Shown here in pieces: positions 48,295 through 58,656 of a stretch of 64,000 nucleotides of DNA. The notes beneath the pieces were generated by a model that worked only from the letters and a program-made list of their open reading frames with translations, was not told the origin of the DNA and did not search any database. This DNA is from Bacteroidota bacterium. Its GTDB lineage: Bacteria; Bacteroidota; Bacteroidia; Chitinophagales; Chitinophagaceae. The position numbers were made by a program, and so were the translations under genes. Positions within the stretch are counted from its first letter, which is position 1. Each line of letters starts with the position of its first letter. The stretch spans positions 1 to 64,000 of the forward strand of contig JABDAZ010000005.1 in assembly GCA_013288945.1 (NCBI GenBank), read 5' to 3'.

Positions 48295-49446
48295 ATGACT
48301 GACTTTAATATAATCCGCCAATATAATTTTCCCACGATAATAAGATTTGGCGCAGGCGCCGTGAAAGAACTTCCTGATCATTTGATTAATAATAATCTTC
48401 GCAAAGCACTTCTTGTTACAGATCCGATGGTTGCAAAACTTAATTTTTTTCAAGACATAAAAAAAAGTCTCGAAGCAAAATCAATTTCTGTTGAAGTGTT
48501 TTCTGATATCCATAAAAATCCTGTAAAATCGGATGTAATAAAAGGTGGCGATGTTTTTAAAAGTACAAACCGCGATTGTATTATTGGCATCGGCGGCGGC
48601 GCTGCGATGGATGTTGCGCGTGCAATTGCATTGCGCATAAATCATCACCGCGATTTATTTGATTATGATGATTTAATTGGCGGCGATAAATATGTAACGG
48701 AAGATGTTCCTTATTTTATAACCATACCAACTACAAGCGGCACAGGCAGTGAAGTTGGACGAAGCGCGATTATTTCTGAAGATGATACACACAGAAAAAG
48801 AATTTTATTCTCACCAAAATTATTGGCGAAAATTGTTTTTGCAGATCCATTATTAACGATGGAGCTTCCAGGTTTTATAACTGCCGCAACAGGAATGGAC
48901 GCATTAACGCACAACATGGAAGCCTTTGTGGCAAAGGGTTTCCACCCAATGGCAGATGGAATTGCATTGGAAGGAATTACATTAATAAATGAATCAATCG
49001 CTGATGTAGTTAATAATCCTTCGCTTGAATCGCGCAGCAAAATGATGATTGCTTCATTAATGGGCGCGGTTGCTTTTCAAAAAGGTTTGGGCGTTGTTCA
49101 TTCATTGGCGCATCCGTTATCATCTTTGTTAGATACGCATCATGGTTTGGCAAATGCTGTTAATCTTCCTTATGGAATGCGTTTTAATATTGCAGGATTT
49201 GAAGATAAATTTAAACGTATCGCACGTGCAATGAATTTAAAAAATGAAACAGGCGAAGCAGTTGTTGAACATTTATTTTCATTAAACAAACAAATGAATT
49301 TGCCATTAAAACTAAGCGCGATTGGCGTTAAGCATGAACATATAGAAACTTTATCAGCATTGGCTTTCGCAGATTTTTGTCATCCAAGCAATCCGAAGGT
49401 TGTTAATGAAAATGATTTCAAAAAATTATATCTCGAAGCTTTATAA
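48295..49446 (+). CDS. iron-dependent alcohol dehydrogenase (group III)
   Basis: The 383-residue protein has the NAD motif GIGGGAAMDVARA, the family signature TIPTTSGTGSEVGRSAII and the iron-ligand region VHSLAHPLSSLLDTHHGLANAV with several His. In this context it should oxidise the hydroxyl of gamma-glutamyl-ethanolamide to the aldehyde. It lies 84 bp after the ligase and 103 bp before the fused dehydrogenase. A different alcohol substrate is possible. Confidence 0.88.
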   Translation: MTDFNIIRQYNFPTIIRFGAGAVKELPDHLINNNLRKALLVTDPMVAKLNFFQDIKKSLEAKSISVEVFSDIHKNPVKSDVIKGGDVFKSTNRDCIIGIGGGAAMDVARAIALRINHHRDLFDYDDLIGGDKYVTEDVPYFITIPTTSGTGSEVGRSAIISEDDTHRKRILFSPKLLAKIVFADPLLTMELPGFITAATGMDALTHNMEAFVAKGFHPMADGIALEGITLINESIADVVNNPSLESRSKMMIASLMGAVAFQKGLGVVHSLAHPLSSLLDTHHGLANAVNLPYGMRFNIAGFEDKFKRIARAMNLKNETGEAVVEHLFSLNKQMNLPLKLSAIGVKHEHIETLSALAFADFCHPSNPKVVNENDFKKLYLEAL

Positions 49447-49549: not shown

Positions 49550-51631
49550 ATGATCAAAAAAAAAATAGGCATCAGTTTTACAACAACTAATTTTCAATAT
49601 TACTGGAATTGGTTTACTGAAAATGATTTGCAAAATGATGTTGAACTCGTTGAATTATCATTTGTAAAAAATAATGTTGCTGATGTTTTTACCTGCGATA
49701 GTTTTATTTTAACCGGCGGCGTTGATGTTGATCCATCTTTATATAATGGAAATAAAATTTATAATAATCAACCATCTTCTTATCAAATTGAGCGCGATAA
49801 TTTTGAAAAAATAATTTTTGAATACGCGCAAACCCGCAGCCTGCCTGTGTTAGCGATATGCAGAGGAATGCAGTTAGTAAATGTTTTGCATGGCGGAAAA
49901 CTCATTCAGGATTTAGATGAATTAAATATTACACATCGTAAAGACGGAGATATTGATAAGCAACATGAAGTAAATATTGAGCAAAAAACTTTGTTATCTC
50001 AAATCACAAAATCACAAAAAGGAAATATTAACAGCGCGCATCACCAGGCTATTAATAAAAATAATTTGGGAGAAAATTTATTAATAAATGCTTTTGCAAA
50101 AGATGGAACTGCGGAAGGAATGGAATTTAAAAATAAAACCAACAAAGCGTTTATGCTTTGCGTGCAATGGCATCCGGAAAGGATTATTAATAAAGAAGAA
50201 AATGTGTTTTCAATAAATATTAAAAAAAGATTTTTAGAAGAAACAAGAAATTCAACCATGAAAAAATTATCTATTATTAATCCAGCGACTGAGGAAATAA
50301 TTACAGAAATTAATGAAGACAACGAAGAAAGTATTAATAAAAAATTCTTTTTATTGAAAGAAGGACAGCCAGTGTGGGCAAGCATTTCAGTAGATGAAAG
50401 AATTGCGTGCATTGCAAAATTTCATGCTCTTCTTGATGAAAATAAAGATGAACTCGCAAATACATTAACGTCAGAAACAGGTAAACCTTTGCAGCAATCG
50501 CACAACGAATTAAATGGTGCGCGCAATCGTATAAAATTTTTTATAGATAATTCTGCCAAACATCTTGCAGAAGAATTGATAACAACTGAAGGTTCAACCA
50601 AAGAAAAAATTGTTTATGAACCATTGGGAATTATCGCAAATATTTCTGCATGGAATTATCCTTATCTCGTTGGCGTAAATGTTTTTATTCCTGCATTAAT
50701 CGGTGGCAATGCGGTGTTTTATAAACCGTCTGAATATTCAACATTAACAGGCATTAACATTCAACAATTATTATACAAATCTGGTGTGCCGGAAAATGCT
50801 TTTCAAATTGCAGTTGGCCGCGGAACTGTTGGCGATTTATTATTACAACTTCCACTCGACGGATATTTTTTTACCGGCAGTTATAAAACCGGAAAATATA
50901 TTGCAGAAAGAGTTGCAACAAAATTAGTTCCTTGTCAATTGGAATTGGGTGGCAAAGATCCATTGTATGTAATGGATGATGTGGCAGACATTAGTAAAAC
51001 CGCAGAAGCCGCGCTGGAAGGCGTTGTATATAATAATGGACAAAGCTGCTGCGCGGTGGAAAGAATTTATGTACATGAAAAAATTTATGATCAGTTTGTT
51101 GATTCATATACATCACAAATTAAAAAAATGAAAATCGGAAGCCCAGTTGATGCATCAACTGAAATTGGCCCGCTTAGCCGAAAAGAACAAGTTGATTTTT
51201 TATTGTCACAAATAAATGATGCAGTTGAAAAAGGCGCAACATTATTAGCTGGCGGAAAATCGATTTCATCAAAAGGTTATTTTATTGAACCAACGGTTTT
51301 AACCAACGTTAATCATGAAATGAAGATCATGAAAGATGAATCTTTCGGCCCTGTTGTTGGTATACAAAAAGTAAAAGATGATGATGAAGCATTGTTATTA
51401 ATGCAAGACACTGAATATGGATTAACAGCAGCGATCTATTCAAAAAATTATGAACGTGCTGAAGCAATGATGAAAAAAATAAATACAGGAACCGTTTATT
51501 GGAACTGCTGTGATCGAGTAAGCGCAACACTTCCATGGAGCGGAAGAAAACATTCTGGACTCGGAACAACATTATCTTTTCAGGGAATTCGTGCGTTTGT
51601 GCAACCGAAAGCGTATCATATTCGGGGATGA
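49550..51631 (+). CDS. fused gamma-glutamyl amide hydrolase / aldehyde dehydrogenase
   Basis: One uninterrupted 693-residue frame joins two enzymes. Residues 1-235 are a class-I glutamine-amidotransferase-like hydrolase of the PuuD/C26 type: SFILTGGVDVDPSLY, nucleophile Cys104 in AICRGMQ, and His208/Glu210 in QWHPE. Residues 237-693 are an NAD-dependent aldehyde dehydrogenase: ISAWNYPYLVG, Glu465 in LELGGKDP, Cys500 in NNGQSCCAVER. In the proposed path it oxidises the gamma-glutamyl aldehyde to gamma-glutamylglycine and then splits it to glutamate and glycine. Met237 (50,258) could give a free dehydrogenase. Confidence 0.88.
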   Translation: MIKKKIGISFTTTNFQYYWNWFTENDLQNDVELVELSFVKNNVADVFTCDSFILTGGVDVDPSLYNGNKIYNNQPSSYQIERDNFEKIIFEYAQTRSLPVLAICRGMQLVNVLHGGKLIQDLDELNITHRKDGDIDKQHEVNIEQKTLLSQITKSQKGNINSAHHQAINKNNLGENLLINAFAKDGTAEGMEFKNKTNKAFMLCVQWHPERIINKEENVFSINIKKRFLEETRNSTMKKLSIINPATEEIITEINEDNEESINKKFFLLKEGQPVWASISVDERIACIAKFHALLDENKDELANTLTSETGKPLQQSHNELNGARNRIKFFIDNSAKHLAEELITTEGSTKEKIVYEPLGIIANISAWNYPYLVGVNVFIPALIGGNAVFYKPSEYSTLTGINIQQLLYKSGVPENAFQIAVGRGTVGDLLLQLPLDGYFFTGSYKTGKYIAERVATKLVPCQLELGGKDPLYVMDDVADISKTAEAALEGVVYNNGQSCCAVERIYVHEKIYDQFVDSYTSQIKKMKIGSPVDASTEIGPLSRKEQVDFLLSQINDAVEKGATLLAGGKSISSKGYFIEPTVLTNVNHEMKIMKDESFGPVVGIQKVKDDDEALLLMQDTEYGLTAAIYSKNYERAEAMMKKINTGTVYWNCCDRVSATLPWSGRKHSGLGTTLSFQGIRAFVQPKAYHIRG

Positions 51632-51855: not shown

Positions 51856-53208
51856 TTGGCTTCCGGAAATATTTTATTAATAGATGATGAAGAAAAACTG
51901 AGGACGTTGTTAAAACGCATCATCAGCCTGGAAGGATTTTTTATTTACGAAGCCAACAATTTAAAAGCTGCGAATAAAATTTTAGATAAAGAACAAATTG
52001 ATATTGTATTGTGCGATGTAAAATTGCCCGACGGAAATGGCGTTGATTTTACAAAGCATGCAAAAAATAAATTTCCATCTGCTGAAATTATTTTGATGAC
52101 GGCTTATGGAAATATTACTGACGGCGTGCAGGCCATGAAAAATGGCGCGTTCGATTATATTATTAAAGGCGATGACAATGAAAAAATTATTCCGCTGCTT
52201 AATAAAGCAATGGAAAAATCAAAATTGCAGAAGCGCATTGAGCAATTAGAAAAACAAGTTGGTAAGAAATATAGCTTTGAAAATATACTCGGGCAATCTT
52301 CATTAATACAAGATGCAATTATGTTGGCAAAAAAAGTTGCGCCAACTGATGCAACCGTTTTATTGCTTGGCGAAACAGGAACTGGCAAAGAAGTTTTTGC
52401 ACAAGCCATTCATTATGAAAGTAAGCGTGCCGCAAAACCCTTTCTGGCATTGAATTGCAGCGCCTTTGGAAAAGAATTGTTAGAGAGTGAAATATTTGGC
52501 CATAAAGCTGGCGCATTTACCGGCGCGATAAAAGATAAAAAAGGTTTGATTGAAGAAGCAGATAATGGAACTTTTTTCCTGGATGAAATTGGAGAAATGC
52601 ATATTGATTTGCAGGCGAAATTGTTGCGCGTTTTGGAAACAAGTGAGTTTATAAAAGTGGGCGATACAAAATCTACCAAAGTAAATGTGCGCATTATTGC
52701 AGCAACCAATCGCGACTTGCAACAAGATGTTGCCGATGGAAAATTTCGCGAAGATTTATTTTACCGCATTAATGTTTTTACAATTCAATTGCCAGCTTTG
52801 CGCAATAGAAAAAAAGATATTCCTGTCTTAGCAGAACATTTTCTTGCTATCTTTTCTAAAAAAACAAATCAACGGATAACCAGCATCAGTAAGGATTTTA
52901 TGGAACATTTGCAAAACCATGAATGGAAAGGGAATATCCGTGAATTAAAAAACGTGATGGAACGCGCATGTATTTTAGCCAACAGCGAACAATTAAATAT
53001 TGACAGTTTGCCTGTTGAATTTTTATTAAACACAACTTCATCTTCAAACAATCAGCTCTCTGCTTTTTCATTAGCAAGTGTTGAAAAATTACATATTCAG
53101 CGCGTATTAAATCATACAAAAGGAAACAAAACAGAAACTGCGCGTTTATTAAATATTGGCCTCACTACGTTGTATAGAAAAATTGAAGAGTACAACATCA
53201 CTCCATAA
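51856..53208 (+). CDS. sigma-54-dependent response regulator (NtrC family), TTG start
   Basis: The 450-residue protein has a receiver domain (ILLIDDEEK; phosphoacceptor Asp in IVLCDVKLPDG; LMTAYGN), an AAA+ domain with LLGETGTGKEVF, a canonical GAFTGA loop, Walker B GTFFLDEIGEM, and a Fis-type helix-turn-helix (GNKTETARLLNIGLTTLYRKI). No ATG lies before the conserved ILLIDDE, so it starts at TTG 51,856; an in-frame TAA stands 15 bp upstream. No kinase is adjacent. It probably controls the ethanolamine set or the following porins. Confidence 0.88.
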   Translation: MASGNILLIDDEEKLRTLLKRIISLEGFFIYEANNLKAANKILDKEQIDIVLCDVKLPDGNGVDFTKHAKNKFPSAEIILMTAYGNITDGVQAMKNGAFDYIIKGDDNEKIIPLLNKAMEKSKLQKRIEQLEKQVGKKYSFENILGQSSLIQDAIMLAKKVAPTDATVLLLGETGTGKEVFAQAIHYESKRAAKPFLALNCSAFGKELLESEIFGHKAGAFTGAIKDKKGLIEEADNGTFFLDEIGEMHIDLQAKLLRVLETSEFIKVGDTKSTKVNVRIIAATNRDLQQDVADGKFREDLFYRINVFTIQLPALRNRKKDIPVLAEHFLAIFSKKTNQRITSISKDFMEHLQNHEWKGNIRELKNVMERACILANSEQLNIDSLPVEFLLNTTSSSNNQLSAFSLASVEKLHIQRVLNHTKGNKTETARLLNIGLTTLYRKIEEYNITP

Positions 53209-53306
53209 TATAAACTTGTGTTTTAAAAATTTCTCTTTGTAAATAAAAAGTGTTTGACTTTATATTTACAAAAAAATTATCAGGATTATTTATTAATAGT
53301 TCAACG

Positions 53307-54389
53307 ATGAAAAATATTTTCCTAATCATTATTGGTTCATTTTTTTGCAATTGTATTTTTGCACAAGACAGTAGTATTAATAAAAATAAATTGACCATAT
53401 CGGCTTATGCAGAATTGTATTATTCTTACGATTTTAATAATCCGCAAAACAACACAAAGCCAGGTTTTATTTACAATTTTAACCGCAACAATGAAGTAAA
53501 CCTTAACCTTGGTTTTATTAAAGCATCTTATAATTCTGAAAATGTAAGGGCCAATCTTTCCATTGCCGCGGGCACTTATATGAATGCTGCTTATTCTTCT
53601 GAGCCCGGCACTTTAAAAAATATTTTTGAAGCAAATGCAGGAATAAAAATTTCGAAGAAAAACAATATGTGGATTGATGCTGGTATTTTTTCTTCGCATA
53701 TCGGATCTGAAAGCGCTGTTGGCGCAACATCATGGAACCTTACACGAAGTATTGTTGCAGAGAACACGCCTTATTACGAAAGCGGTGTGAAATTTAGTTA
53801 TACATCTAAAAATAATATCTGGTTATTAAGCGCATTATTTTTAAATGGATGGCAACATATTGCAAGGCCCAATAGCAATACCAGCCCGGCTTTCGGGACA
53901 CAAGTTACTTTTACTCCGTCAGCAAATTTCAGTTTGAATTATAGTACGTTTATTGGAAATGATAAACCAGACAGTATAAAACAGGAACGTTATTATAATA
54001 ATCTTTACGCCATTTTTCAATGTACCAAATCACTCGCTTTGCAACTTGGTTTTGATTATGGATTGCAACAAAAAGCAAAAGGAAGTTCATCCTTTAATAA
54101 TTTATTTGCGCCACTGATTTTATTGCGGTTTACTTCCGGCAATAATAATATTGTGGCGCGCGCAGAATATTATTCTGATCCAAATGAAATCATTGTTCAA
54201 TCAGGAACGCCAAATGGTTTTAAAATTTTTGGATGGAGTATTAATTACGACAGGCAAATAACTTCCAAAATAATGTGGAGAATTGAAGCAAGAAATTTGG
54301 TGGGAAAAGATAATTATTTTTCTGACCATAACAACAACACTTCTAACAACTCTACTTTTTTAACTACATCAATTGCTGTCAGTTTTTAA
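53307..54389 (+). CDS. outer-membrane beta-barrel porin (BBP2-like)
   Basis: From the ATG at 53,307 (MKNIFLIIIGSFFCNCIFAQ) the protein is 360 residues with a signal peptide cleaved near FAQ. Alternating amphipathic strands (LTISAYAELYYSYDF, NIVARAEYYSDPN, SKIMWRIEARNLVG) and a C-terminal Phe (SIAVSF) are barrel hallmarks; it resembles the putative beta-barrel porin-2 family. It lies after the sigma-54 regulator. A frame extending 19 codons upstream lacks a signal and is not used. Substrate unknown. Confidence 0.75.
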   Translation: MKNIFLIIIGSFFCNCIFAQDSSINKNKLTISAYAELYYSYDFNNPQNNTKPGFIYNFNRNNEVNLNLGFIKASYNSENVRANLSIAAGTYMNAAYSSEPGTLKNIFEANAGIKISKKNNMWIDAGIFSSHIGSESAVGATSWNLTRSIVAENTPYYESGVKFSYTSKNNIWLLSALFLNGWQHIARPNSNTSPAFGTQVTFTPSANFSLNYSTFIGNDKPDSIKQERYYNNLYAIFQCTKSLALQLGFDYGLQQKAKGSSSFNNLFAPLILLRFTSGNNNIVARAEYYSDPNEIIVQSGTPNGFKIFGWSINYDRQITSKIMWRIEARNLVGKDNYFSDHNNNTSNNSTFLTTSIAVSF

Positions 54390-54497
54390 ATTCTAAAAAA
54401 ATATTTTGAAAACAGCAACTTCCTTAATCACTTTTCTTTTTTAAAAATCTTCAACTGCATTTGCAAAGCTTTCCATTCTTTTCATTTTGATAATAAC

Positions 54498-54514
54498 CAT
54501 ATCAAATTGATATG
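54498..54514. promoter_or_regulatory. 17-bp palindrome, candidate operator
   Basis: CATATCAA-A-TTGATATG is a perfect dyad 142 bp before the next porin gene, in a 266-bp gap. A related dyad, CCTTATCA-AAA-TGATATGG, lies upstream of the kdp operon at 56,487-56,505, so one regulator may bind both. Confidence 0.5.
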
Positions 54515-54655
54515 TTGTTGAACGCAGCATACATTCTCTTTATTAATAAAACACAGTTACAGCAAGGCTTTCAACATATAAAATATTTTAAGGCATTCTT
54601 TTGGCAAAGCTTGAGTTATTAATAAGATTACTATTTTTTAAGAAATAATTTTAAG

Positions 54656-55987
54656 ATGAAAAAAAGAATTATAATAATCATAGCCTTTGCAAGTATTGCA
54701 TTTTGCGTGAGTGCACAAAATGCAGACAGTGTAAATAAAATAAAAAAAGATAGTGTAATACGCTCGCTTCCATCACCGCTTTCTAATCCGCCATTTCCAA
54801 CTTCAGATTGGGATGGCGGCCCATTGGTTGGTGTTGATGCAACTGCGCCAAATTATCTTTTGCAAAAAGCATTAGGGCTTACAAAAAGCAAAGTAAAAAT
54901 TTATGGCTGGATTGATTTCGGCGGAAATTTAAGTACATCCAAACATTCGAATGCGCCTACATCTTATGACTTAATTCCGAATTCAGTTGTGCTTGACCAG
55001 GCAGGTATTAAGTTTGACAAACAACCAAATACTGCGCAAACAGATCATATTGATTGGGGTTTTTTATTAACCACAATTTTTGGAACTGATTACAGGTATA
55101 CAACTGCAAAAGGTTATTTCAGCAACCAATTGCTTGCGCATAATAACAAATATGGTTTTGATCCTGCAGAGCTGTACGGTATAATTTATTTTCCAAAGAT
55201 TGCTGATGGAATGATTTTAAAAGTTGGCCGTTATATTTCGCCGGCCGATATTGAAGCGCAGTGGGCAACCGATAATTATTTGTATTCGCATTCATTAATG
55301 TTCACTGTCGATCCATACACGTTCACAGGTGTGCAGGCAACTTTTAAATTGGGATCTTATTGGCAGTTGGAAGTTGGCGCACACTTTGGAAATGACATGG
55401 CGCCATGGAGCAATTCTGCAAAATTGAATGGCTTATTAATGGCAAGATGGGTTTCAAAAAATAATAACAACTCGCTGTATGGTGGAATCAATTCCATCGG
55501 AAGTGGCCAGTATACAAATCAGCATGATGATTTGCAAATGGCTGTTATTACATGGGGGCATAAATTCAATGAAACCTTTCACATGATGACGGAAGCTTAT
55601 TATATGTGGCAATACAATGCATTAACAGGCGGAACAGTTATTAACGGGCCAGGACGCCCATTTTACGAAGGCGTCGGTGCGGGCACATTAATACCAGGCG
55701 CATCAAACACTGTTGGTTTTGTAAATTATTTTCAAATACTATTTTCAAAGAAAAATTATTTATCAATAAGAAATGATTTGCTGAATGATCCGCAAGCGAA
55801 CAGAACTGGGTTTGCAACAATGTATACAAGCCATACGATTGGCTTTGTTCATTTCTTTAATGATTACATCCGCGTTCGCCCTGAAATCCGCTATGAGCGT
55901 GCTTATGCAGATGGTGCAACGCCTTACGATAATGGAACGAAGAAAGATCAGTTTACTGCTTCGATGGATTTGATAATGCGGTTTTGA
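54656..55987 (+). CDS. outer-membrane beta-barrel protein (BBP2-like)
   Basis: The 443-residue protein has a signal peptide (MKKRIIIIIAFASIAFCVSA), then barrel strands (KVKIYGWIDFGGNLS, MILKVGRYISPADIEAQWAT, YFQILFSKKNYLSIRNDLL) ending in Phe (MDLIMRF). It resembles OmpL/BBP2 barrels, larger than the preceding porin. Its stop codon TGA falls inside the first unit of the TTGATAA array that follows. It may admit substrates of nearby transporters; its role is not shown by sequence. Confidence 0.75.
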   Translation: MKKRIIIIIAFASIAFCVSAQNADSVNKIKKDSVIRSLPSPLSNPPFPTSDWDGGPLVGVDATAPNYLLQKALGLTKSKVKIYGWIDFGGNLSTSKHSNAPTSYDLIPNSVVLDQAGIKFDKQPNTAQTDHIDWGFLLTTIFGTDYRYTTAKGYFSNQLLAHNNKYGFDPAELYGIIYFPKIADGMILKVGRYISPADIEAQWATDNYLYSHSLMFTVDPYTFTGVQATFKLGSYWQLEVGAHFGNDMAPWSNSAKLNGLLMARWVSKNNNNSLYGGINSIGSGQYTNQHDDLQMAVITWGHKFNETFHMMTEAYYMWQYNALTGGTVINGPGRPFYEGVGAGTLIPGASNTVGFVNYFQILFSKKNYLSIRNDLLNDPQANRTGFATMYTSHTIGFVHFFNDYIRVRPEIRYERAYADGATPYDNGTKKDQFTASMDLIMRF

Positions 55988-56039
55988 TAATTGATAATTG
56001 ATAATTGATAATTGATAATTGATAATTGATAATTGATAA
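55984..56039. repeat. 8-unit heptanucleotide array TTGATAA
   Basis: Eight perfect TTGATAA units begin at the last bases of the barrel-protein gene; the first unit supplies its stop codon. The array is the same length of unit as the one at 51,704 but different in sequence. Confidence 0.95.
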
Positions 56040-56189
56040 TAAAAAACGCAATGGTGATTTGATGGTTGCTTTGGCAACAAGAATTTCAGAATAAAAATGC
56101 AGTTATTAATAGCTGCATTTTTGTTTTAAATGAAAGTGAAATTTGCATTGACTATCTTGCGCACGTTTTATTATCATTTAAAATACATT

Positions 56190-56468
56190 ATGACTGCAAC
56201 GGAAATTATTGGTTTATTAGCAGCGTCATTAACAACCGCTGCATTTTTTCCGCAGGTTATAAAAACGGTGAAATCAAAATCTACAAAAGATATTTCATTG
56301 CCAATGTATTCATTAATGTTTGCGGGAACAGTAAGCTGGTTAGTTTATGGTTTACTTATTTTTGATCTTCCTATTATTCTCGCAAATGGCATTTCTTCTA
56401 TCGCTTCATTTGTAATTTTTTATTTTAAATTTCGCGAAGTGCTTCATCATAAAAAAGCTGCAAAATAA
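56190..56468 (+). CDS. SemiSWEET sugar transporter
   Basis: From ATG 56,190 (MTATEIIGLLAASLTTAAFF) the protein is 92 residues with three helices, the PQ-loop half-unit: TTAAFFPQVIKTVKSKSTKDISLPMY carries the PQ motif, SWLVYGLLI the second helix, and ILANGISS the conserved Asn. SemiSWEETs form homodimers moving sugars by facilitated diffusion. The frame extends 20 codons upstream but the conserved family start is this Met. It lies alone between a porin and the kdp operon. Confidence 0.88.
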   Translation: MTATEIIGLLAASLTTAAFFPQVIKTVKSKSTKDISLPMYSLMFAGTVSWLVYGLLIFDLPIILANGISSIASFVIFYFKFREVLHHKKAAK

Positions 56469-56486
56469 ATTTCCAATTTGAAAATA

Positions 56487-56505
56487 CCTTATCAAAATGA
56501 TATGG
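56487..56505. promoter_or_regulatory. 19-bp dyad, candidate operator upstream of kdp
   Basis: CCTTATCA-AAA-TGATATGG has one mismatch in eight-base arms and resembles the 17-bp palindrome at 54,498. It lies 19 bp past the SemiSWEET stop and 146 bp before the first kdp-region small gene. Confidence 0.45.
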
Positions 56506-56581
56506 TTATTATTCTTGCAACTTTTCTTCCGTAAAAAATATATCTCCTGAAAGCGTTGACAGCATTGAGTTTAGCTGCTTA

Positions 56582-56607
56582 ATGCCTTTTTATTTTATTA
56601 AAGGCAT
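56582..56607. other. 8-bp stem hairpin before kdp small genes
   Basis: ATGCCTTT pairs with AAAGGCAT over a 10-base AT loop, without a T-run afterward. It may be an mRNA leader element or an operator in the 182-bp gap upstream of the kdp genes. Confidence 0.35.
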
Positions 56608-56650
56608 ATCGTTTGGAATATTGGTGCAACAGAAATCAAAACATTCAATT

Positions 56651-56734
56651 ATGCTGTTACTAATATTAATACTTGCAGGGCTTTTTTGCTTTGTGATATT
56701 TTTTAAATCCGTTGATTTTTTTGATAAAATTTAA
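56651..56734 (+). CDS. 27-residue membrane peptide upstream of kdpF
   Basis: ATG 56,651 opens 27 codons: MLLLILILAGLFCFVIFF, then KSVDFFDKI. A single hydrophobic helix with a short charged tail resembles small Kdp-operon membrane peptides. It lies 4 bp before the kdpF ATG in the same direction. I know no proven role; it may be a second KdpF-like subunit. Confidence 0.5.
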   Translation: MLLLILILAGLFCFVIFFKSVDFFDKI

Positions 56735-56738
56735 TTGT

Positions 56739-56816
56739 ATGACCATTTTATTTATTCTCTCAATTTTTGTTTTTGTGTACTTGTGTTATGTACTTATTAA
56801 GCCGGAAAAATTTTAA
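56739..56816 (+). CDS. kdpF: KdpF-like K+-transporting ATPase small subunit
   Basis: ATG 56,739 opens 25 codons: MTILFILSIFVFVYLCYVLI then KPEKF. One hydrophobic helix followed by the KPEKF end matches KdpF (the E. coli peptide ends RPEKF). KdpF binds between KdpA and KdpB and stabilises the complex with lipid. Its position just ahead of kdpA supports this. Copy 7 of the dispersed repeat lies between it and kdpA. Confidence 0.8.
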   Translation: MTILFILSIFVFVYLCYVLIKPEKF

Positions 56817-56864
56817 TAGTAACAGGTTGTTGCATTTTATTAATCGATAAATAACGAACAAAAA

Positions 56865-56891
56865 GTACAAGAGTGCGACGCAACGATGATG
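56865..56891 (+). repeat. dispersed repeat, copy 7 (partial)
   Basis: The plus strand reads GTACAAGAGTGCGACGCAA then diverges. It lies 65 bp upstream of the kdpA start, the same orientation and distance class as the copies before the permeases. Confidence 0.65.
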
Positions 56892-56955
56892 CTATGAAAA
56901 ACAAATGCTGGTTACAAAAACAAAAAAAGTTGAAAAGAAATTATAACTCCAGATT

Positions 56956-58656
56956 ATGAACACAGAAATTTCAGGAATAATATTTATGTACGTTGCGATG
57001 GTGCTGCTGGCGATTCCGCTGGGCAGTTATATCGGAAAAGTTTTTGAAGGACAGCGCACATGGCTTGATGTAATTTTTAATCCGCTTGATAAATTATTTT
57101 TTAAACTCGGCGGTATTAAACCAGAAAAAGAAATGAATTGGAAGCAACATTTATTTGCGTTGCTCACGATTAATGTAGTGTGGTTTATTTTTTCGATGAT
57201 TGTATTAATGACGATGGGTTCGCTTCCATTGAATCCGGATGGAAATCCTTCGATGAGTGCAGATTTAGCATTTAATACAACCATCAGTTTCATCTCAAAC
57301 ACAAACCTGCAGCACTATTCAGGCGAATCAGGAGTTTCATATTTGGGGCAATTGATATTAATGTTGTTTCAATTTATCAGCGCTGGTGTTGGAATTGCTG
57401 CGTGTGCAGTTGTGTTTAATGCAATGAAAGAAAGGACAACAGAAAAGTTGGGCAACTTTTATAATTACTTTATAAAATCATGTACGAGAATATTGTTGCC
57501 ATTATCAATTGTTGTTGCGGTTATACTTTTATTTAACGGAACGCCGATGACGTTTAAAGGAAAAGATAAATTCATTTCTTTGCAAGGCGATACCGTTAAC
57601 GTGAGCCGCGGGCCGGCAGCAGCAATGGTTGCAATAAAACAATTGGGTACAAATGGCGGCGGATTTTTTGGTGCAAATTCTGCACATCCATTAGAGAATC
57701 CCAATTACTTCACCAATATTGTAGAGAATGTTTGTATTGTATTAATACCAATTGCGCTCGTGTTTGCTTTGGGATTTATTTTGAAAAGAAAAAAATTAGC
57801 ATGGGTAATTTTTGGTGTGATGACAATTGGTTTTTTATCATTTGTTGTTCCTTCTGTTTATTATGAAATGAAAGGAAATACATCGATCGCAAAGTTGGGC
57901 ATCGCTCAAAATAATGGAAGCATGGAAGGCAAGGAAACCCGCTTTGGCGCTGCTGCTTCAGCGTATTGGGGAATTACTACAACTGTTACATCAAACGGAT
58001 CTGTTAATGCTGCGCATGATAGTTTTACGCCACTCACAGGCATGTTTGCGATGCTTGGAATGATGGTGAATTCTTTTTACGGCGGCGTTGGTGTGGGCTT
58101 TCTGAATTTTTATATTTATATGATCATCGCGGTATTTATTTCCGGATTAATGGTAGGAAGAACACCAGAATTTTTAGGTAAAAAAATTGAAGCGAAGGAA
58201 ATGAAAATTGCAACCATCATTGCATTGTTGCATACATTTTTAATTTTAAGTTTCACTGCATTATCATCTCATTTATATGCGCATGATCCAAAAACATACG
58301 CATCATGGTTGAACAATCCAGGCAATCATGGCTTCTCTGAAATGTTGTACGAATACACATCTTCATCCGCAAACAATGGTTCTGGTTTTGAAGGTTTGGG
58401 AGATGGTGTTCCATTCTGGAATATCACTTGCGGCATTGTAATGATACTTGCGCGATACCTTCCAATCATAGGCCCACTCGCTATTGCAGGCATTTTGGCA
58501 AAAAAGAAATTTGTTCCTGAAAGTGCAGGCACATTAAAAACAGATACCGTAACATTTGGCATAATGATTTTTGCAGTCATTATGATTGTCGCAGCATTAT
58601 CATTTTTCCCGGCACTTGCTTTAGGGCCAATTGCAGAATTCTTTTCACAGAAATAA
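56956..58656 (+). CDS. kdpA: K+-transporting ATPase subunit A (KdpA)
   Basis: The 566-residue membrane protein has about ten helices and the selectivity-filter Gly motifs of KdpA, e.g. [28 protein letters not shown] and [15 protein letters not shown]. KdpA is the K+ channel-like subunit that binds K+ from the periplasm and passes it to KdpB. The filter segments appear intact. It starts 139 bp after the kdpF stop and ends 11 bp before kdpB. Length equals the family norm (about 557). Confidence 0.95.

Follow-up and report, generated by a model that had tools for sequence, protein, structure and literature searches.

A four-gene cluster from a Chitinophagaceae bacterium is likely a shell-free, EutBC-independent operon for ethanolamine utilization via gamma-glutamylation, with the term shell-free referring here to missing EutB. 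It was analyzed within a 64,000-nucleotide stretch of contig JABDAZ010000005.1 (assembly GCA_013288945.1), hereafter the window, and specifies an Eat-type permease, a glutamine synthetase (GS)-like ligase, an Fe-alcohol dehydrogenase (Fe-ADH), and a fusion of a C26-type hydrolase with an aldehyde dehydrogenase (ALDH). In the proposed pathway, the permease would import ethanolamine, the ligase would use ATP to join it to glutamate as gamma-glutamylethanolamide, and the Fe-ADH would convert this product to gamma-glutamylacetaldehyde. Next, the ALDH half of the fused protein would yield gamma-glutamylglycine, from which the C26 half would release glycine and glutamate, thus recovering the glutamate carrier. 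The fusion would place these last two steps on one polypeptide. The order put forward in the sequence-only reading (ligase, alcohol, aldehyde, hydrolysis) holds as a prediction from the domain calls. We infer the substrate, the order of reactions, the origin of the fusion, and any benefit that it brings.

If this assignment is correct, shell-free ethanolamine catabolism extends to a phylum for which the literature searched yielded no report, and the pairing of a GS-like ligase with an adjacent Eat-family permease becomes an annotation marker that separates this pathway from glutamine synthesis. The fused version and the split version of sister species would also form a natural experiment on whether aldehyde escape is limited when the aldehyde-oxidizing and carrier-releasing steps are joined. 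We know of no pathway step that has been shown biochemically in any Bacteroidota.

Cluster layout and the fused hydrolase-ALDH protein

Permease, ligase, Fe-ADH, and fusion follow each other in this order on a single strand, the genes being either slightly overlapping or separated by short gaps (Table 1). Coordinates, Pfam calls, and the TIGR00908 model bear out the earlier description of these four genes as running in one direction, and the permease exceeds the cutoff of this curated "ethanolamine permease" model (446.9 versus 381.75 bits). The gene set and its catalytic residues, conservation, linkage, and distribution are directly supported.

Table 1. Predicted features of the cluster in window coordinates
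Feature	Position	Strand	Family or structural match	Remark
Eat-type permease, 453 aa	45504..46865	+		From ATG 45504; mechanical ORF begins at TTG 45369
GS-like amine gamma-glutamyl ligase, 456 aa	46840..48210	+	PF00120	
Fe-ADH, 383 aa, proposed gamma-glutamylethanolamide dehydrogenase	48295..49446	+	PF00465 + PF25137	
N-terminal C26/PuuD-like hydrolase domain, proposed gamma-glutamylglycine hydrolase	49550..50257	+	PF07722; PDB sequence matches 3fij, PuuD 6vtv	
C-terminal ALDH domain, proposed gamma-glutamylacetaldehyde dehydrogenase	50258..51631	+	PF00171	Met237 at ancestral start

Translation of positions 49550-51631 yields a single 693-aa frame with no internal stop and one terminal stop, in which Pfam places Peptidase_C26 at residues 48-210 (E 4.7e-44) and Aldedh at 236-688 (E 1.1e-128). 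The C26 domain scores 151.2 bits against a Pfam gathering score of 20.5, and its residues align with those of PuuD, in agreement with membership of the family. Cys104, His208, Glu210, Asn369, Glu465, and Cys500 are invariant in all 21 aligned fused proteins (alignment A2). Translation, Pfam, and alignment A2 thus confirm the C26-like and ALDH frame of 693 residues and the catalytic residues named for it in the sequence-only reading. An AlphaFold model of the fusion has a mean pLDDT of 84.6, with low values at 461-468, a segment covering Glu465, and at 646-676. The best 50 Foldseek matches listed for this model are ALDHs only and therefore add nothing on the hydrolase half.

The ALDH half carries the motifs GQSCCAVERIY and ELGGKDPLY. 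The former, as GQxCCxxERxY, is common to the ALDHs of seven other ligase clusters (Legionella lytica, Photobacterium, Ruegeria, Marinovum, Burkholderia, Rhizobium, and M382), and so is the latter except in Photobacterium, which has ELGGNDP. Both are missing from PuuC, from the ALDHs of IpuC clusters, and from the two ALDH paralogues of the window genome. Among the 80 ALDH rows aligned, window included, the first motif is universal; the second occurs in its strict form in 72 and with one change in the other eight. The Fe-ADH shares Asp202, His206, His269, and an HHG motif with its counterparts in the Legionella lytica, Photobacterium, Ruegeria, and Marinovum clusters, and is 36-39% identical to those of Legionella, Ruegeria, and Marinovum; it falls below the cutoff of all 17 family models that it matched, EutG included. 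An ADH and an ALDH with their catalytic residues therefore both lie within the cluster, and their linkage is conserved.

The ligase scores below the cutoffs of the GlnA (217.5 versus 429 bits), type III GS (215.2 versus 470), and gamma-glutamylputrescine synthetase (207 versus 650) models. Its best PDB sequence matches are 11zs and 5dm3; the molecule name of the latter is L-glutamine synthetase, and we take it to be the Chromohalobacter salexigens ligase. Aligned with E. coli GlnA, the protein retains the metal and ATP residues together with R321, R359, H271, and R344, and it is substituted at the ammonium-flap E327 (Trp) and at N264 (Pro), with a Phe aligned with Y179; an Asp aligns with D50 in a stretch that is poorly conserved. 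The cluster thus has the expected GS-like ligase devoid of the ammonium-site E327, a loss reported for GlnA4 and PauA7 in the accessible portion of PMC6529630. Since IpuC and ligases from polyamine-type clusters also have Trp at this position, the residue marks an amine ligase and is not specific to ethanolamine ligases.

Beyond the operon, positions 51856-58656 of the window hold an NtrC-type regulator, two BBP2 porin-family genes, a PQ-loop protein, and a KdpA-like frame, the Kdp name being our presumption from the look of the sequence. The regulator has similar neighbors in some relatives; since Kdp-like genes are close to it here and in several of them, this NtrC2 was not counted as an operon member. 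Whether the flanking NtrC/NtrB genes exert sigma-54 control was considered, and the idea was found unsupported: the -24/-12 consensus occurs in 1 of 58 upstream regions, and with up to two mismatches it has 46 matches in the window versus 48 expected.

Distribution and origin of the fusion

The fusion is real and occurs fairly often in Chitinophagaceae and in Bacteroidota related to them. An intact, stop-free version is present in 8 of the 33 genomes of the genus-level group of the window, its own included. A scan of GTDB contigs returned at least 585 candidate stretches, 516 of which were confirmed and 80 kept as named loci; among the matches listed, these 80 comprise 21 fused, 57 adjacent, and 1 separated pair, plus 1 locus without the hydrolase. 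Two of the fused loci are incomplete, L090 being cut by a contig end and L148 having its ALDH frame broken after the junction. Recurrence at this scale argues against an assembly accident, with the limit that the two counts are not independent because several of the 80 loci are contigs of genomes in the genus-level group. Among the fused loci are those of isolates such as Terrimonas pollutisoli, Foetidibacter luteolus, and two Flavisolibacter species. Of 395 genomes drawn evenly from the class Bacteroidia, 47 match the fusion profile at E <= 1e-100: two are fully fused (the window's own and G167), 10 have both domains in line with stops, and 35 match over the ALDH part only, a class in which a separate hydrolase, if present, falls below the E threshold. 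Open frames of 735 and 780 aa had suggested further fusions in G019 and G030, but these have two and four stops between the domains, respectively, and were discarded as unfused.

As to the origin of the fusion, two genes lying close together most likely became one when the stop codon between them was lost. In several unfused relatives, only a few bases separate the hydrolase stop from the ALDH start, and at L144 the two overlap as ATGA. The ancestral start Met of the ALDH, residue 237 in the window protein, is kept in 17 of the 21 fused proteins and lost in four. This retained internal Met and the tight spacing of the genes give the fusion the appearance of a stop-codon loss.

The same features leave some room for a protein pair encoded in one frame, with Met237 starting a separate ALDH, or for a neutral read-through devoid of functional coupling. 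Retention of Met237 in most fused proteins, the tight gene pair of several unfused relatives, and the several changes between fused and split states would all be in keeping with this alternative, which we nevertheless judge unlikely because all 21 fused proteins keep the six catalytic residues of the two halves unchanged and four of them have lost the internal Met.

Phylogenies of the two halves would be compatible with a single fusion, or a small number of them, and later splitting. The hydrolase tree was built from 73 of 80 possible rows after dropping short or interrupted ones; all 22 fused rows, window included, fall with 11 unfused rows into one 33-row set (support 99/89), and the remaining 40 rows are all unfused. 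Six changes of the fused state are needed on this tree, three of them forced. The ALDH tree, with 80 rows including the window and excluding L148, the frame of which is broken after 266 aa, needs eight, at least two of them forced by starred branches.

Conserved linkage, permease relationships, and the substrate

The cluster was followed in 59 named loci, among the matches listed, in which at least 6,000 nt precede the ALDH start. Of these, 53 have the ligase, 55 the Fe-ADH, and 45 the permease, and 45 combine permease, ligase, Fe-ADH, and hydrolase; for the 16 fused loci within this listed set, the counts are 15 for the ligase, 16 for the Fe-ADH, and 11 for the permease. Each of these families is large and common, and the window genome has other ALDHs, so that ordinary genes of nitrogen and aldehyde metabolism might adjoin by chance; the conservation of the neighborhood contradicts this explanation, which we regard as scarcely credible.

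Genome-wide counts point in the same direction. Among the 395 Bacteroidia genomes, 44 have both ligase and permease, 8 the ligase only, 10 the permease only, and 333 neither; a strong ALDH and the ligase co-occur in 38, with 4 having the ALDH only, 14 the ligase only, and 339 neither. The ligase was counted at E <= 1e-100 and the permease over its cutoff, five weak ALDH rows were dropped, and all thresholds were of our choosing. Species relatedness means that the small Fisher p-values for these co-occurrences overstate significance. Together with the locus counts, the draw gives a positive answer to the check suggested in the sequence-only reading, namely, whether the fusion architecture accompanies ligase, dehydrogenase, and permease across Bacteroidota.

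Linkage is incomplete in some genomes. The permease exceeds its cutoff in only 7 of 16 genomes checked and in none of the other nine, and five of these nine, of 99-100% completeness (G025, G010, G026, G028, and G015), have ligase, Fe-ADH, hydrolase, and ALDH, the last two either fused or encoded by adjacent genes, with no permease over the TIGR00908 cutoff. Five members of the genus-level group of the window (G008, G016, G005, G006, and G003) have the ADH and ALDH together with the hydrolase missing from the cluster; a hydrolase homologue lies elsewhere in G005, G016, and G006, G008 has a short weak match, and G003 has none.

As no ligand can be proven from sequence, linkage was used as evidence on the substrate. 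The ligase by itself leaves the substrate unfixed, since homologues 43-44% identical and bearing the same Trp occur beside aminotransferase and polyamine-type ABC transporter genes. Deducing the substrate from ligase phylogeny alone was rejected for this reason, near homologues residing in clusters of differing logic. In a 28-row tree that included every fourth Bacteroidota row, the Bacteroidota relatives of the window ligase form their own branch, only 34-35% identical to the Ruegeria and Marinovum ligases.

These polyamine-type neighborhoods, the PuuD-like hydrolase, the GS-like ligase, and its match, below cutoff, to the gamma-glutamylputrescine synthetase model are what a Puu-like pathway for putrescine or polyamines would have in its favor. 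We consider this pathway very improbable, given that the cluster has an alcohol dehydrogenase and no PuuB-type oxidase or aminotransferase, that its ligase and ALDH are only 29% and 30% identical to PuuA and PuuC, and that the best model of the permease is not a polyamine one. Membership in the Puu system proper was rejected on the missing oxidase and aminotransferase and the ligase score of 207 versus 650 bits. An ADH in place of the Puu oxidase or the polyamine-cluster aminotransferase fits an amino alcohol as the substrate.

That this amino alcohol is ethanolamine is supported indirectly, by the occurrence of the permease family both beside EutB and beside Ruegeria-type ligases. In the 395 Bacteroidia genomes, the permease adjoins EutB in 9 of the 10 genomes that have both and adjoins the ligase in 23 of 44 (within 3 kb, same strand). 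A permease tree was calculated from 17 sequences fetched of the 54 over the cutoff, the window permease, and two outgroup rows. Of its 18 permeases, the nine linked to EutB make up a single clade that groups with the ligase-linked ones, apart from the two other APC permeases. Identity to the window permease is 54-76% for the eight ligase-linked, 41-47% for the nine EutB-linked, and 24-25% for the two other APC proteins.

Four permease regions were read from genomes that have no window-type ligase. In G377 and G258, which belong to the same taxonomic order, a ligase 42-45% identical to that of Ruegeria is followed by an open stretch (a short-chain dehydrogenase by Pfam in G377), then by an ALDH and a class-I GATase, and last by a permease that shares 63-65% identity with the window permease. 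This second ethanolamine-type module of Bacteroidota spans positions 5973-11491 of L211 in G377 and 6318-11898 of L212 in G258. In G058, a Ruegeria-type ligase abuts a permease 64-65% identical to that of the window, with TRAP-type frames around; the TRAP binding protein is 23-26% identical to the Ruegeria and Marinovum ones, and therefore no specificity is claimed for it. The permease of L213 (G298; 55% identity) has no ligase, ALDH, ADH, or hydrolase nearby. The arrangements in G377, G258, and G058 thus pair closely similar permeases with two kinds of ligase, in a family that also accompanies EutB. The ethanolamine assignment made in the sequence-only reading gains support from this double linkage, as it does from the gene order that the Ruegeria and Marinovum clusters share with the ethanolamine operon of Phaeobacter.

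Another small amino alcohol, such as 3-aminopropanol, alaninol, or serinol, could be the main substrate of the same enzyme logic. APC permeases can be broad, the window ligase branch differs from that of Ruegeria and Marinovum, and the window ligase shares 37% identity with IpuC, which is annotated as a gamma-glutamylisopropylamide synthetase. Against these points stand the TIGR00908 call, the grouping of the window permease with EutB-linked ones, and the pairing of 63-65% identical permeases with Ruegeria-type ligases, which make a substrate other than ethanolamine quite unlikely.

Membership in the Eut system was rejected: EutB is absent from all 58 genomes searched, the window's own (73% complete) included, in a search that detected the E. 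coli positive control. It was likewise not found in the window's own genome (73% complete) within the 395-genome draw, nor was gcvP found in that genome. In this draw, EutB (16 genomes) and the ALDH (47 genomes) share no genome, which is weak evidence since about two shared genomes are expected by chance, and the ligase is adjacent to EutB in none of the seven genomes that have both. Seven genomes (G171, G259, G336, G346, G407, G419, and G443) combine EutB with an unlinked ligase homologue (55-62% identity) and have no window-type ALDH, so some ligase homologues do something else. Five of the 16 EutB matches (G301, G142, G161, G390, and G299) lie in frames of 779-796 aa with scores much lower than the rest, possibly representing a fused or different type of EutB.

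These distributions bring up a wider proposal, which we see as evenly balanced between true and false, namely, that Bacteroidota hold two interchangeable ethanolamine modules sharing a permease family (Eat-EutB and Eat-ligase-ADH-hydrolase-ALDH), and that in the second the hydrolase and the dehydrogenase have been repeatedly fused and possibly resplit, giving a bifunctional enzyme that converts gamma-glutamylacetaldehyde directly to glycine and glutamate and thereby keeps a reactive aldehyde contained with no need of a shell.

Comparison with known systems

The last-step hydrolase differs among clusters of this kind, being a C26 enzyme in the window; a class-I GATase in Legionella lytica, in G377, and by resemblance in Photobacterium; and an N-formylglutamate amidohydrolase in Ruegeria (by Pfam) and Marinovum (by annotation). 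The plasmids of Legionella lytica and Photobacterium sp. DA100 resemble the window in having ligase, ALDH, Fe-ADH, and hydrolase in one run, with a ligase 44% identical; they differ in the class-I GATase (Pfam call for Legionella) in place of C26 and in a run without a permease. These runs occupy positions 6953-11600 of L174, where annotation is generic, and 6956-11720 of L176, which is unannotated. To our knowledge, the substrate of either ligase operon is unreported.

The Puu system of E. coli (PuuP-PuuA-PuuD-PuuC-PuuB-PuuE) shares with the window the glutamyl-carrier logic, a PuuD-type hydrolase, and an ALDH, but acts on a diamine by means of an oxidase and an aminotransferase, has separate genes, and shows 29-30% identity for ligase, ALDH, and hydrolase.

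A functional precedent concerns Streptomyces coelicolor, for which a four-step gamma-glutamyl ethanolamine scheme with GlnA4/SCO1613, SCO1611, SCO1612, and SCO1615 is proposed in the accessible parts of PMC6529630 and of the review PMC9397018. Ligase, alcohol oxidation, aldehyde oxidation, and amide hydrolysis are common to that scheme and the one proposed here. According to the same portion of PMC6529630, GlnA4 acts on ethanolamine in vitro and the later steps are predicted; step 2 is assigned to a short-chain dehydrogenase, separate genes encode the hydrolase and the ALDH, EpuRI serves as regulator, Streptomyces is reported to have no strong Eat homologue, and SCO1615 is named both a glutamine amidotransferase and a member of the formylglutamate amidohydrolase family.

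In Phaeobacter sp. MED193, as far as the accessible text of PMC10132767 goes, the products of an operon rise on phosphorylethanolamine, and its binding protein binds ethanolamine with a Kd of ~8 micromolar. Ligase, ALDH, and gamma-glutamylethanolamide dehydrogenase lie in that one operon, a likeness to the window, and its genes are called closely related to a demonstrated pathway of C. salexigens and Agrobacterium (PMC10132767, ref. 32); the accessible text of PMC6529630 describes the C. salexigens pathway as predicted in silico. Plasmid clusters of Ruegeria sp. B32 and Marinovum have the gene order given in that account for the Phaeobacter operon, with an Fe-ADH and an ALDH of the same motifs; the link of Phaeobacter to an Fe-ADH and an N-formylglutamate amidohydrolase rests on the identical order in Ruegeria sp. 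B32. Operons of this type have a TRAP transporter versus Eat in the window and no fusion, and the Ruegeria cluster has an N-formylglutamate amidohydrolase (Pfam) versus C26, with a ligase 34-35% identical.

The sequence-only reading regarded the fused last two steps in a Bacteroidota organism as new. For the fusion and for the pathway in Bacteroidota, no description was found among the papers listed from the open-licence literature, judged by title and start of abstract, whereas the four-step pathway as such was already known from the accessible parts of PMC6529630 and PMC10132767. Most likely, the novelty thus lies in an Eat-type permease, an Fe-ADH, a C26 hydrolase, and fused last steps, brought together in Bacteroidota inside a known pathway.
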